NCBI GenBank assembly: GCA_947501635.1
Contig: CANMWT010000005.1
Coordinates: 332,360 to 396,359 of the forward strand
Origin: an uncultured Roseobacter sp.
GTDB taxonomy: Bacteria; Pseudomonadota; Alphaproteobacteria; Rhodobacterales; Rhodobacteraceae
Length of the DNA stretch: 64,000 nucleotides
Reading direction: 5' to 3'
In this document: positions 47,769 through 53,714 of the stretch, piece after piece
Numbering within the stretch: the stretch's first letter is position 1
Layout: each line of letters opens with the position of its first letter
Translations under genes and position numbers: made by a program
The notes under the pieces: model-generated
The model's input: the letters and a program-made list of their open reading frames with translations, nothing else
The model's database searches: none
What the model was told of the DNA's origin: nothing

Positions 47769-48956
47769 TTGGCACGGACGCTAAACAAGTTGAACAACGC
47801 AACCGTCAAAGCGGCGGGCGCAGGTAAATACTCAGACGGCGGTGGCCTCTGGATTTACAAGAATGCCAATGGCGGCGCGAAGTGGGTGCTACGGTATTCG
47901 CTTTACGGTCGACGTCACGAGATGGGTTTGGGTGGATACCCTGAGGTCTCATTAAAAGAAGCCCGTGAAAGCGCAGAAGAGTGGCGGTTGGTTGTGCGGA
48001 AGGGCAAGGATGCCATTAAGGAACGCGAACGCCAGCGCCGTGAAGCTGAGCGAAACATGCACATTCTGAATGATGTTGCTATTGACGCCTTCGAGAGCCG
48101 CAAGGCGGAGTTGAAGGATGAAGGAAAAGCAGGCAATTGGTTCTCACCGCTTGAATTACATGTTCTGCCAAAACTAGGCAAAATGCCGATTACTCAGATC
48201 GACCAGCGCGACATACGCGACACGCTGGCTCCTATTTGGCACACCAAGGCAAGCACCGCGCAGAAGGCAATCGATAGGCTAGGGGTGTGTATCAAGCACG
48301 CCGCAGCGTTAGGCCTGAACGTAGACATGCAAGCTACGCAGAAAGCTAAGGCCCTTTTGGGCAAACAACGCCACACGGTTAAGCATATACCTGCAATGGC
48401 ATGGCAGGACGTGCCGCAATTCTATCAAAGCTTGAATGGCGGCGGTGTTGGTGAACTTGCGTTACAATTGCTCATCCTCACGGCGGCGCGGTCTGCCAAT
48501 GTGCGAAATCTCCACGAATACCACATCGACGGCGATGTGTGGACCATCCCCGCTGACGCCATGAAAGGCCGTATGGGTGCGACAACTGACTTTCGTGTTC
48601 CTTTGTCAGAGGAAGCACTGCGCGTCATTGAAGAGGCCCGCAAGATTTCGCGGGATGGCTTCTTGTTTCCTGGGGTAAGGCGGGGCGTACTCTCCGACAT
48701 GACACTGAGCGCATATATGAAACGCCGAGGCATTGAGGCGCGCCCCCACGGCTTCCGGTCTTCTTTCCGCGACTGGTGCGCTGAAACCACCAATACACCA
48801 CGTGAGGTCGCAGAAACGGCACTAGGGCATGTCAGTGGTAGCAGCGTTGAGCGGTCATACCGGCGAACAGATTATCTTGAGCAGCGGCGAACGCTGATGG
48901 AGCGGTGGGCTAAACATCTTCTAAAACCGAGGGCTGATGTGGCGCAAATCGCATGA
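47769..48956 (+). CDS. Tyrosine-type integrase with N-terminal DUF4102 arm-binding domain (TTG start)
   Basis: KYSDGGGLWIYKNANGGAKWVLRYSLYGRRHEMGLGGYPEVSLKEAR; R-H-R-Y catalytic pattern incl. HGFRSSFRDW, ALGHVSGSSVERSYRR. Confidence 0.94.
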   Translation: MARTLNKLNNATVKAAGAGKYSDGGGLWIYKNANGGAKWVLRYSLYGRRHEMGLGGYPEVSLKEARESAEEWRLVVRKGKDAIKERERQRREAERNMHILNDVAIDAFESRKAELKDEGKAGNWFSPLELHVLPKLGKMPITQIDQRDIRDTLAPIWHTKASTAQKAIDRLGVCIKHAAALGLNVDMQATQKAKALLGKQRHTVKHIPAMAWQDVPQFYQSLNGGGVGELALQLLILTAARSANVRNLHEYHIDGDVWTIPADAMKGRMGATTDFRVPLSEEALRVIEEARKISRDGFLFPGVRRGVLSDMTLSAYMKRRGIEARPHGFRSSFRDWCAETTNTPREVAETALGHVSGSSVERSYRRTDYLEQRRTLMERWAKHLLKPRADVAQIA

Positions 48957-49546
48957 CTGAACCGTTTTCCTTGGAGCGCCTGAAATCAGAATGGCCAAAA
49001 CTCCTAGAGTTGGAGGAGGCGGCTTTCCAACGGAATTGCGAACTAGATTCACATGGAGAGCACGTTTCGCAAGAAAAAAAAGATGCAGTTAGAGAATGGT
49101 GGCGATTGGTAAACGGTATTCTTTGGATGTTTGTAAGGACGCGGGCGCAACACAATCATGAGTTGCAGCCATTCCCTGCCTACACTCTGGGCAGGCTCGC
49201 AAATATTGCGGAAGAAATTTCAAATGGAAATGTGCCTTCTTTAATCTCTGATGCCCGAAAAGGTGGCAGGGCACTTTGGCGGGCAGAGCGACATCATATT
49301 GCATACGGCATTGCTTACATTGAAGCCGTGCGTGAAGGCAAAATCATCGACAAATCGCCAAACAAGACGGTAAGGCAGGCTTACAACGTCACTGCGAAAG
49401 CTGTTCAAAACTGGATGAAAAGACGGGATGAGTTTTGTGTTGGTGTCCCTTTCAAGCACCTGACCCCGAGCCAGCTCCAAGAAAAAATGGTCGAATGTGC
49501 AGAAGTATATGCAAGAATTGGGAGAGGCGCACCCTCCGATAACTAG
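48953..49546 (+). CDS. Unknown protein, possible HTH segment; coupled to integrase
   Basis: ATG overlaps integrase TGA (ATGA at 48953-48956); segment TVRQAYNVTAKAVQNWMKR is HTH-like by eye. Confidence 0.6.
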   Translation: MTEPFSLERLKSEWPKLLELEEAAFQRNCELDSHGEHVSQEKKDAVREWWRLVNGILWMFVRTRAQHNHELQPFPAYTLGRLANIAEEISNGNVPSLISDARKGGRALWRAERHHIAYGIAYIEAVREGKIIDKSPNKTVRQAYNVTAKAVQNWMKRRDEFCVGVPFKHLTPSQLQEKMVECAEVYARIGRGAPSDN

Positions 49547-49657: not shown

Positions 49658-49828
49658 ATGAACTACATATCGTTTAGCCAACTACAGGCAAAACTGGGCA
49701 ACCGTAGCAGAAGCTCAGTATACCGCGACCTTGAAGCGGGGCGTTTGCCACCGCCGGTCAAACTCGGGGCCAGACTTTATTGGCCTGAAGACGCAATCGA
49801 TGCTGCGATAGCAGACTTATCCAAATAA
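49658..49828 (+). CDS. AlpA/MerR-like excisionase-type DNA-binding protein
   Basis: MNYISFSQLQAKLGNRSRSSVYRDLEAGRLPPPVKLGARLYWPEDAIDAAIADLSK, typical AlpA pattern; ATG at 49658. Confidence 0.8.
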   Translation: MNYISFSQLQAKLGNRSRSSVYRDLEAGRLPPPVKLGARLYWPEDAIDAAIADLSK

Positions 49829-49945: not shown

Positions 49946-50122
49946 ATGAAGAACAGCAAAAATCCGATGTTGTCTGCTAATCCTGTTGTCAGTCCGACAG
50001 CCGAGATGATGGCGGAAAGACACAAAAACCACTTCCAGATCATGTACCTGCGCCGCCTGCACGGGCTTACAGAGGCCCAGGCACAAATGATGGCCATTCT
50101 GATTTGGGGAGGCCTGCAATGA
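49946..50122 (+). CDS. 58-aa unknown protein upstream of the replication gene (below ORF-track cutoff)
   Basis: MKNSKNPMLSANPVVSPTAEMMAERHKNHFQIMYLRRLHGLTEAQAQMMAILIWGGLQ; SD AAAGGAAAG; stop overlaps next ATG (ATGA at 50119-50122). Confidence 0.65.
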   Translation: MKNSKNPMLSANPVVSPTAEMMAERHKNHFQIMYLRRLHGLTEAQAQMMAILIWGGLQ

Positions 50123-52740
50123 AAGCGCAATTCGCACTGGAACACCCTTCAACGCCGCCGGTATTCTGCACCGGCTTCGGTCAGAATGATACACATGCCG
50201 TCACGCTGAGCGATGGTCGCACCAATCCACACCCGTCTGCAGGACATCCCTATGATACGATCACCGGCCCGGAAATCGTAGCGCTTGTGGAGCACCCGCC
50301 GAGCGTTGCGAAAGAACGTGCGCAATGGTTTATCCCGTCTGCCTATGCGCAGTCCGACGGGCGGAGTCACGAAGTCCAACAGGCGCATGGCGCGTTTTTC
50401 TGGCTGGCGCTCGATGTGGACCAAAACAACCTTTCCCTGAGCGAGGTCAGAGAGGCTCTGAACCTTGTTCTGGGTCCCTGCAGCATGGTGATCTATGCAA
50501 CCCGGTCGGCAACTCCAGATGCCCGCAAATGGCGCGCTCTTGTGCGCCTGAGGGAACCTCTGGCGGGGGCTGACTACAGCGATACGGTGGCGGCCTTCTA
50601 CGATCTTCTGGAAGAACAGACAGAAGGTGTGCTGATCTGTGACCGGGCGCTGGAGCGCACTGGTCAGCTGGTCTATCTGCCAAATCGGGGCGACTTCTAT
50701 GAATACCATGTTGAACGCGCCACACCGCTGGCTCTGACGCCTGACCACGCGGTCATCCAGCGCCGGGAAACAAACCGGGCCAGACGCTTACAGGCCGAAG
50801 TTGAAGCGCGGGCCGCGCGCGCCAGAAAAGCCGCACAGAGGCTGGAACGTGGCACATCGGACGACACCGATCCCGTGGTCCGCTTCAACGAAACGCACAG
50901 CATAGCCGATCTTCTGGAACGTTACGGATATACCCGCGGCGGCCATGGTAATGACTGGCGCAGCCCCATGCAGCAGTCCGGGAGCTTTGCGACGCGGGAC
51001 TATGGTGACCACTGGATCAGTCTCAGCGGTTCAGATGATGCTGCAGAAATCGGCGCGGCCTCGAAAAGCGGTCACCGGTTCGGAGACGCGTTCGATCTCT
51101 ATGTTTACTTCGAGCATGGGGGCGATCTGTCCGATGCCGTGCGCAGCTACGCGCAGGAAGCGGGGCTGGACGATCGCGTCGGGGCGTTCGCTTGGAAGCC
51201 TGAGCAACCCGCTTCTACGCCCGCAAGGGCGAACACGTCGGAAAAAAACAGCGGGCATGGCATTCTGCCATCCTCTGACTGGCCTGCGCCGTCTCCGGCA
51301 TTGTTGCGCCCCAGCCTGCCAGAACCGCCCGTGCTGCCCTTGATAGACATTCTGGGGCCGCGCGCGGCGGAATGGGTCAGTGCGACAGCTGAGGCAGCAG
51401 GCGCGCCTGCGGATTATGTGCTGAGCGCTCTCTTTGCCGCCGTCGGTGGTGTTATGGGCAACGCCAGATGGGTCAGCCCCTGGAAAGGCTGGACCGAGCC
51501 TCCGGTGATCTGGTCTATGTGTGTTGGTCTGCCCAGTGCGGGCAAGTCACCCGCGATAGATGCAGTTTTGTCCGGTGTCCGGCGCGCGGAAAAGCCCATG
51601 CGGACGCGCTCGAGTGCCGAGCATGAAGCTTGGGTAGAGCAACAAAAACTGGCGAAGATTGCCGAGCGGGCATGGGAAGCCAAATGCCGCAAAGCCATGG
51701 CCAAGGGGGCTGAACCACCGTCTCTGCCAGCAGAGGCGGAGGTGGGCCCGGAGCCGCATGTCCCGCGCCTCATTGTCAATGACGGCACAGTAGAGCGGAT
51801 CGGGGTCATTGCCGAGGCGCAGCCCAAAGGGGTCCTGCAGGTCCGTGACGAGTTGTCCGGCTGGTTGCTGACAATGGAAGCGCGCAACGGTGGATCTGAC
51901 CGAGCCTTCTGGCTGGAGGCCTATGGGGGGCGGTCGTTTACGGTGGAACGTATGGGGCGCAAGCCTCTAACCATCGACCGGCTGACAATCGGTGTGCTGG
52001 GCGGTATCCAGCCCGACAAGCTGAATGACCTTCTGATCAAGGCGTCAGACGACGGGTTGGTTGCACGCTTCATGCCGACATGGCCGGCACCGGCACCTGT
52101 GCGACGTCCTACGCGCTATGCAGATGATGCCGTCGCTGATGATGCCTGGGCGCGACTGGTGGCGCTGGACATGCCCGTTAATGAGGATGGCGAACCGCGC
52201 CCGTGGTTTGCAGGCTTTGACGATGGTGCAGCCGCGTTGATGGATGGATGGCGGCAGCAGTGCAGCGACTGGGAAACGGAGGCTGGAGGGCTACTGATGT
52301 CTCACATCGGCAAGTTCCCGGGGCTGGCCGCACGTCTGTCTTTGGTGCTGGCGGCAATCGACCACGCCTTTGACGGGGCACCACAGCCCAATACAATAAC
52401 GGTGTCCGAGTTCGGACGGGCCTGCCACTACATCGAGGCCTACGCGCTTCCCATGGCGCGCCGATGCTATGCAGGGGCTTCCGTTCCCGCCAGCGAGGCC
52501 GCGGCGCGGCGGTTGTTGGCGGTCATCCGGGAAGAAGGATGGCAGAGATTTACGACACGGCAGGTTATGCGTCAGGAGAGAGCTGCTCTGGGCACCAAGA
52601 ACAAGCTCGATCCAGCTTTGGCCGTTTTGCTTGAGGGAGACGTCATACGCCCCGCGGGCACCGCGAAAGACGAGCCCAAGGGCGGTCGGGCTGTGAAGGC
52701 CTATGAGGTCAATCCGGGGGTTCTGGGGGGGCGCAAATGA
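50119..52740 (+). CDS. Element replication protein: primase-like N-terminus plus DUF3987 ATPase/helicase-like domain
   Basis: N-terminal FFWLALDVDQNNLS...MVIYATRSATPDARKWRALVRLREPL (AEP-primase-like); DUF3987-like SMCVGLPSAGKSPAIDAVLSGVRR and LQVRDELSGWLLTMEA. Confidence 0.78.
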   Translation: MKAQFALEHPSTPPVFCTGFGQNDTHAVTLSDGRTNPHPSAGHPYDTITGPEIVALVEHPPSVAKERAQWFIPSAYAQSDGRSHEVQQAHGAFFWLALDVDQNNLSLSEVREALNLVLGPCSMVIYATRSATPDARKWRALVRLREPLAGADYSDTVAAFYDLLEEQTEGVLICDRALERTGQLVYLPNRGDFYEYHVERATPLALTPDHAVIQRRETNRARRLQAEVEARAARARKAAQRLERGTSDDTDPVVRFNETHSIADLLERYGYTRGGHGNDWRSPMQQSGSFATRDYGDHWISLSGSDDAAEIGAASKSGHRFGDAFDLYVYFEHGGDLSDAVRSYAQEAGLDDRVGAFAWKPEQPASTPARANTSEKNSGHGILPSSDWPAPSPALLRPSLPEPPVLPLIDILGPRAAEWVSATAEAAGAPADYVLSALFAAVGGVMGNARWVSPWKGWTEPPVIWSMCVGLPSAGKSPAIDAVLSGVRRAEKPMRTRSSAEHEAWVEQQKLAKIAERAWEAKCRKAMAKGAEPPSLPAEAEVGPEPHVPRLIVNDGTVERIGVIAEAQPKGVLQVRDELSGWLLTMEARNGGSDRAFWLEAYGGRSFTVERMGRKPLTIDRLTIGVLGGIQPDKLNDLLIKASDDGLVARFMPTWPAPAPVRRPTRYADDAVADDAWARLVALDMPVNEDGEPRPWFAGFDDGAAALMDGWRQQCSDWETEAGGLLMSHIGKFPGLAARLSLVLAAIDHAFDGAPQPNTITVSEFGRACHYIEAYALPMARRCYAGASVPASEAAARRLLAVIREEGWQRFTTRQVMRQERAALGTKNKLDPALAVLLEGDVIRPAGTAKDEPKGGRAVKAYEVNPGVLGGRK

Positions 52741-53069
52741 CAAGATGGCTTAAAGCAGCCCAGCAGGTCAGGACACGGGACAAATGGGACAAAACGGACG
52801 AAACCCCGCCTGAAAGCCCCGAAACGGAGGTTTTGTCCCAAAAGTCCCATTTGTCCCGTGTCCCATGCGGTGAAATACGTACTTTTGAGCCGAGGTCGCG
52901 TGACGATGATGTCAGTCCTTACGGACAAGCTATCGGCGGTCTGCAGCGCACCTGGACAGGCAAGGTGGTCAGCCTGTCAGACTGGCACAATCTGTCGGAG
53001 TGGGAGCGCCACGGCAGCACCGGCAAATTGTGGAACGGCATCACCCGCAAATGGGAACCGGACGAATGA
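52737..53069 (+). CDS. 110-aa protein downstream of replication gene; N-terminal part overlaps the iteron palindrome
   Basis: ATGA overlap with previous ORF; C-terminal TWTGKVVSLSDWHNLSEWERHGSTGKLWNGITRKWE looks like real protein. Confidence 0.6.
   Translation: MTRWLKAAQQVRTRDKWDKTDETPPESPETEVLSQKSHLSRVPCGEIRTFEPRSRDDDVSPYGQAIGGLQRTWTGKVVSLSDWHNLSEWERHGSTGKLWNGITRKWEPDE
52771..52863. repeat. Iteron-like palindrome: 20-bp perfect inverted repeat, 53-bp spacer (candidate replication origin)
   Basis: GGACACGGGACAAATGGGAC (52771-52790) and GTCCCATTTGTCCCGTGTCC (52844-52863); tandem GGGACAAAT/GGGACAAAA/CGGACGAAA at 52777-52803. Confidence 0.75.
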
Positions 53070-53526
53070 TGCCCGAAAAGAACCCATGCAACGACTGCTT
53101 TTACCAGAAACGGACGTTCGTTGCACTGTGGACGAGTGTCTCAGTTGCGGACGAAGCTGCCTGATGCTGACGCAGCAAAATGCGTCGCCGCGGGGCGGTC
53201 ACGTTGTTGAGCTTGTCGCCGGTTTCAGCCTGATTTCCGCAGAACTGCCATTTAAAAAACAGACAGTTTGCGTGTTAATTTACGATGCCGACAATGCTAT
53301 TAAGCTCGGTGCGGTTCAAGGCAGCTTGTAGTTTTATCAATAGCTGATCTTTCTCTTGCGAGGTTAGTCTTGTGCGTTAGGGCGGGACCAACTGCAACGC
53401 TCTTGAGAAACCTGAAAATACTGCTAATCTGTAATGACGAGTTTCGAGGATGTCGCGCACAGCTATGGGCGCAATCGTCTTTGTGAGGCTTTAAAACAGT
53501 TGAACATCTTTTTAGGAGGAAAACGG

Positions 53527-53631
53527 ATGGCTTGGAAGAAACCTACAGCGATAGAGATTTCGTGTGGCATGGAAATCAACATGTACGGCCCTGGCGAAGA
53601 CGACGAGCGTAGCGGTGACGACCTGTTCTGA
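53527..53631 (+). CDS. pqqA: PQQ precursor peptide PqqA (34 aa)
   Basis: MAWKKPTAIEISCGMEINMYGPGEDDERSGDDLF with conserved Glu-x3-Tyr (EINMY); SD AGGAGG; upstream of pqqBCDE. Confidence 0.92.
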   Translation: MAWKKPTAIEISCGMEINMYGPGEDDERSGDDLF

Positions 53632-53714
53632 AGAACGACTCAACTAAAAGCCTTTGAGCGTGACATTTTCAAATTGTCGAGTCTGTTCAAACGGCAATCT
53701 GAATTTGAACCAGT

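Follow-up and report, generated by a model that had tools for sequence, protein, structure and literature searches.

A head-to-head iteron array lies directly behind the gene for a DUF3987 replication protein in the window, the whole 64,000-nucleotide stretch of uncultured Roseobacter sp. DNA analysed here, and this palindrome is very probably the origin from which a small integrative element replicates, and at which the protein would bind. The Pfam family DUF3987 has no known function and is predicted to be a helicase of mobile elements. An earlier note had proposed a candidate origin at this site from the sequence alone, and the comparison with DUF3987 relatives described below strongly supports it. 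Locating the origin of a DUF3987 element makes replication of PICMI-like satellites accessible to testing, for which nature provides pairs of proteins with different specificities.

The array is composed of two arms of 35 nt each, which are 83% complementary in a repeat search of the window and together hold eight 9-nt iterons with an invariant GAC core, the units of the right arm being spaced by 9, 9 and 7 nt (Table 1). The 20-bp perfect inverted repeat with a 53-bp spacer reported previously corresponds to the outer 20 bp of these arms, which are perfect; the 64-kb window has no other perfect inverted repeat that reaches 14 bp at spacings up to 140, and chance alone would give about 8e-6 such perfect 20-mers. 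In the 4.2-Mb genome the exact double unit GGGACAAANGGGACAAA is present a single time. The proximity to the replication gene was likewise confirmed, the array starting 30 bp after the stop codon (52738-52740), and both the open reading frame and the minus-strand reading FVRFVPFVP were recovered at the array. No AT-rich melting region was detected in the spacer or flanks of the window array or in the arrays of close relatives, and an AT-rich spacer is visible in the arrays of some distant relatives. The iteron repeat was not found in the open-access literature that was searched.

Table 1. Positions of the array, the replication protein determinants and the neighbouring genes in the window.
Feature	Position	Strand	Remarks
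Tyrosine integrase of the element	47769..48956	+	Pfam, phrog_1
ORF overlapping int by ATGA (48953-48956)	48953..49546	+	Position of iolg in PICMI; no family match
AlpA-like small HTH protein (excisionase/regulator)	49658..49828	+	HTH_17 below cut-off; phrog_66 E 3e-4
Small ORF ahead of the replication gene	49946..50122	+	No family match; partial similarity in 4 loci
Replication protein, 873 aa	50119..52740	+	PF13148 (DUF3987, putative helicase) E 1.1e-59; PHROG DNA helicase
N-terminal region, primase-polymerase-like motifs	50119..51171	+	hhhDhD motif (LALDVD), KWR; weak Prim-PolC structural matches
Predicted C-terminal winged helix	52489..52710	+	Residues about 791-864; pLDDT 86 over residues 744-873
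Codon Arg814 (start of helix 2)	52558..52560	+	Covaries with third read-out base, C of GAC
Codon Arg818	52570..52572	+	Covaries with first read-out base, G of GAC
Small gene spanning the array	52737..53069	+	Array in variable linker; ends recur in relatives
Left iteron arm	52771..52805	+	Four GAC units at 52772, 52779, 52788, 52797, spacing 7, 9, 9; GGACAC GGGACAAAT GGGACAAAA CGGACGAAACC
Inter-arm spacer	52806..52828	.	23 nt, no AT-richness, no obvious melting element
Right iteron arm, inverted	52829..52863	-	Four units, + strand GTC at 52835, 52844, 52853, 52860
pqqA	53434-53631		Adjoins the right side of the element, pqq genes downstream

The element carries, in order, the integrase gene, the ORF overlapping it, the AlpA-like gene, the small ORF and the DUF3987 gene, followed by pqqA. 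The product of the replication gene reached 202.9 bits with the DUF3987 profile (PF13148), against a curated cut-off of 27. Its N-terminal region, for which the structure model is of low confidence and no Pfam match was obtained, may tentatively be regarded as a primase of the archaeo-eukaryotic (PrimPol) type. An integrase homologue was located 2.4-5.5 kb upstream of the DUF3987 gene in 41 of 57 relatives, and relatives of the AlpA-like protein in 16 of 75 loci. A search for att repeats found none. The two flanks of the element are separated from each other in genomes of the same genus, in one of them with 1.5 Mb between the pqq flank and the left flank; since relatives thus offer no empty site, the ends of the element are only bracketed, at 47.57-47.77 kb on the left and 53.07-53.40 kb on the right. 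Near the right end, the short segment 53100-53181 resembles copies that this genome carries on three further contigs, and similar sequence occurs downstream of the array of locus L130; the segment is possibly a dispersed repeat. When viral contigs were searched with the full-length replication protein (873 aa), no match was obtained.

To follow the array through the family, genomes were scanned with the DUF3987 half of the protein, which yielded 80 loci, mostly from Rhodobacterales, 74 of them with enough sequence. A scan for a palindrome after the stop codon, of the kind suggested in the earlier note, gave a score of at least 12 in 60 of the 74 relatives versus 9 of 335 other genes at the same loci; palindromes with an internal 9-nt period were present in 41/74 relatives and behind none of the 335 control genes. 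The inverted repeat after the stop exceeded the 99th percentile of shuffled sequences at 62 of 74 loci, compared with 0 of 72 at a position 1 kb downstream, and arm identity was 61% at lag 9 and 22-38% at other lags. The common core among relatives is [CT]GACANAAC; other lineages use CGGC, CCATC, GAA, GCA or CCCGA, always with both arms matching, and distant DUF3987 genes add GCTA, GCGAC and CGC cores. When DUF3987 loci were sampled phylum-wide, the automatic scan detected no significant palindrome within 260 nt after the stop in 15 of 30, some of which carry a repeat upstream of the DUF3987 gene or further downstream. In four distant loci (L477, L478, L481 and L485) a GCTA-type repeat immediately precedes the DUF3987 start, replacing or accompanying one downstream. 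In the clade L426-L441 the units are spaced by 7-8 and then 10 nt rather than by 9 and 9, so that about 18 nt per two steps is kept.

An inverted repeat at the end of a gene might also act at the RNA level, as a terminator or attenuator hairpin at the 3' end of the replication gene, and two weak terminator-like matches do occur on the minus strand. Such sites are however no commoner than in shuffled sequences, Rfam gave no match within the array, direct repetition every 9 nt within the arms is unexpected for a hairpin, and the array is translated through in most relatives. We regard a hairpin as highly improbable. Translation through the array raises in turn the question of the encoded peptide, as the repeats could have been selected as a repetitive peptide (DKTDTTD / LSVxSVLS) of the small ORF. 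A small ORF crosses 54 of the 61 arrays, and its ends are conserved (N-terminus MTRWLxAA, C-terminus TWTGKVVSLxxWxxLSxWERHG; 19 of 75 relatives by tblastn); ORF 52737-53069 represents a real gene family whose linker tolerates the array. The left-arm GAC unit is nevertheless translated in frame 0 (DKTDTTD) in some relatives and in frame 2 (TKPTELT) in others, and seven of the 61 arrays are located outside any ORF. Because the frame is unconserved and some arrays are non-coding, selection acts on the array at the DNA level and not on the peptide. Moreover, the two arms covary with each other as DNA, and the core covaries with a different protein. Selection for the peptide therefore has hardly any credit with us. 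The pattern that had been named as fatal to an origin, a repeat drifting freely at the DNA level under a conserved peptide, is the opposite of what was observed, namely a palindromic array kept in the 60 relatives and a peptide that differs among them.

The same arrangement was encountered on extrachromosomal replicons. In pSR11, an 11.5-kb circular plasmid of Salinibacter ruber, and in RHOAph of Rhodovastum (10.7 kb; locus L489) an array directly follows the DUF3987 stop, as do repeats in Priestia p3. No second replication family was found by Pfam among the annotated genes of the three replicons, an unlisted Rep being conceivable because the PLSDB gene tables are incomplete. RHOAph also encodes a capsid fusion protein and ParA beside DUF3987, and has the appearance of a satellite or a phage-plasmid whose replicon is of the DUF3987 type. 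These replicons bear on two further explanations. The array could be an operator through which the replication protein or another winged-helix protein autoregulates the rep operon or the small gene behind the array; its location at a gene start and the four distant loci with a repeat just upstream of DUF3987 speak for this. In most relatives, however, the array lies 3' of the rep gene, no sigma-70-like promoter was detected in 52500-53700, arrays persist where the downstream gene differs or is missing, and the extrachromosomal replicons have the array in the same position. An operator in place of an origin is thus unlikely, although the two roles can coexist. Integrative satellites also require packaging or recombination signals (pac/cos, integrase or excisionase arm sites), and the element has both an integrase and AlpA. 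Yet the location of the array follows the rep stop and not the element ends, plasmids carry it, and its core tracks residues of the replication protein, in a scan limited to this protein; we judge such a signal very unlikely.

Recognition of the iterons by the replication protein is supported by its predicted C-terminal winged helix and by covariation between residues and bases. The last 130 residues are predicted to adopt a winged-helix fold and gave matches to winged-helix structures, none of them significant by E-value; a solved structure of a DUF3987 relative was not found. Writing the unit as T-xyz-ANAAC, we compared residue 814 with base z and residue 818 with base x in 69 triplets, nine of which were assigned by hand; the unit phase is ambiguous for some arrays (GCGAC type). 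Arg814 accompanied C in 59 of 59 cases, and wherever base z was A, T or G the residue was Ser or Thr (10/10). Residue 818 was Arg or His in the 61 cases with G, Asn in four and Ser in one with A, and Asp in three with C, the residues that go with C also being summarised as Asp/Glu. In an unguided scan of all alignment columns, 814 ranked first for base 3 (normalised MI 0.92, runner-up 0.37) and 818 first for base 1 (0.82, runner-up 0.49). The clearest natural pair sets L440 (Arg814, GAC) against the closely related L384, L387 and L400 (Ser814, GAA), and a second switch is seen in L412/L415. In 25 further loci residue 814 again told cores with C (Arg, 17 loci) from those without (Ser/Thr/Lys/Asn, 8 loci), which backs the rule but does not prove it, since the unit phase was judged by eye in several; residue 818 was less clean there, Gln and Val each occurring with more than one base. 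The tree holds four independent switches for 814 and five for 818, and with so few a phylogeny-corrected p <0.05 was not reached.

On balance we lean towards a two-residue code in DUF3987 proteins, in which residue 814 would specify base 3 and residue 818 base 1 of the iteron. As these residues would set the iteron bases, the origin of a DUF3987 element should be predictable from its protein, and elements in one genome would stay compatible through a joint switch of residues and iterons. The genome of the window contains three DUF3987 elements, each of which has an iteron of its own, namely GGGACAAAN, TGCTATTNN and TGCGACAAN; the latter two follow the stops of the further DUF3987 genes L464 (G000:C4) and L510 (G000:C27), respectively, and both loci obey the residue-814 rule. 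If the covariation reflects direct contacts, it would be one of the rare rules that link the sequence of a replication initiator to its specificity, and would explain how several DUF3987 elements share one genome.

The earlier note had linked such iterons with DUF3987 elements. GGGACA as a hallmark of DUF3987 had to be abandoned, because the core differs from one DUF3987 lineage to the next and most GGGACA arrays among the matches listed lie beside other helicase classes. Among the IMG/VR matches listed, in sets that include near-duplicates, GGGACA arrays with 9-nt steps were located close to where a large ORF stops in 62 of 120 cases versus 12 of 118 for the reversed pattern, and arrays with both orientations in 33 of 45; with the spacing left free, coding repeats were numerous among the matches listed and the association was weaker (33/105). 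The adjoining ORFs, again among the matches listed, encode primase-helicases of several classes, mostly VapE and DUF5906 but also AAA_25. Profile comparison revealed no shared C-terminal domain behind the GGGACA arrays, the C-termini being non-alignable across helicase classes. In L006-L125 (matches listed) the same 9-nt GGGACA iterons adjoin unrelated helicase classes. As GGGACA arrays adjoin several such classes, the layout of an array after the gene is general to primase-helicases. Alternating purine-pyrimidine runs of at least 14 nt, which are Z-DNA-prone, were present in 42% of the 45 two-orientation GGGACA arrays (matches listed), in loci that include L006, L008, L010, L088 and L098 and some near-duplicates, versus 0.5% of control segments; shorter CGCGCGC tracts occur in the DUF3987 loci L140, L143 and L489. 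Such runs could possibly serve as a melting element that is not AT-rich.

We propose that the integrase would excise the element as a circle and that the C-terminal winged helix of the DUF3987 protein would bind the 9-bp iterons, each unit taking up one domain. At or near the start of helix 2, residues 814 and 818 would read core bases 3 and 1, Arg814 pairing with C and Arg818 with G in the GAC of the window. The opposite orientation of the winged-helix domains on the two arms could then load two oppositely facing helicase assemblies, which would open the DNA, with priming by the N-terminal primase-like domain or by host factors. The DNA of the array would be the selected part, and the small ORF across it would merely tolerate it.

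Several known systems resemble this arrangement. The P4 alpha protein with ori/crr, which the earlier note had taken as the model, shares a primase-helicase, a C-terminal winged helix and iterons with the window but has a Toprim primase, another helicase and other repeats (PMC6092414, PMC4234260); the nearest described origin is instead that of PICI/SaPI (pri-rep-ori), immediately 3' of rep. In SCCmec, the initiator helicase Cch2 binds iterons just downstream of its own gene through its C-terminal domain (PMC7581432), as proposed here, but it belongs to another helicase family and its iterons are AAGTG. The pRN1 protein combines primase-polymerase, helicase and winged helix, and an essential element lies just downstream of its gene; this element is however a 100-nt stem-loop without iterons (PMC4234260). 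Primase proteins with interchangeable helicases, DUF3987 included, and C-terminal winged helices have been predicted to recognise origins (PMC5862659). In the PICMI satellites of Vibrionaceae the prim gene is needed for replication, and 21 of 35 subfamilies have an iolg-type ORF whose overlap with int amounts to a few nt (PMC10803314); that paper describes no origin, and the word iteron does not appear in its text. The window element shares their small size and gene order (int, ORF overlapping by ATGA, alpA, small ORF, DUF3987 prim): it unites int, AlpA and a DUF3987/DUF5906 primase in one small element, the AlpA match being weak, and its ORF overlapping int was likened to iolg by position. 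PICMI insert at fis, whereas the window element lies next to pqqA, has no known helper phage and encodes a DUF3987 protein with a fused primase-like N-terminus; because its insertion is not at fis, we term it only PICMI-like. In PICI origins, which support plasmid replication, an AT-rich region 3' of rep is flanked by two sets of iterons (PMC6092414), an organisation stated to occur in no other known bacterial replicon (PMC6092414, PMC7581432). Two iteron groups immediately 3' of the replication gene, four units per arm in the window, a C-terminal DNA-binding domain, predicted in the window protein and recognising iterons in SaPI Rep, and the integrase and AlpA of Gram-negative PICIs are shared. 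The window differs in its DUF3987 helicase, in arms only 23 bp apart and in an array inside the downstream coding gene, and was not filed as a PICI origin because the AT-rich region between the iteron sets is missing. The kind of origin is therefore already known, and the DUF3987 array is a variant of it, distinguished by the helicase, the tight head-to-head arms, the spacer that is not AT-rich, the location in a coding gene and the apparent two-residue code. In the literature searched we found no earlier extension to DUF3987 elements, PICMI-like satellites included, and no two-residue recognition code; the present data extend the PICI-type organisation beyond the replicons in which the literature had placed it.
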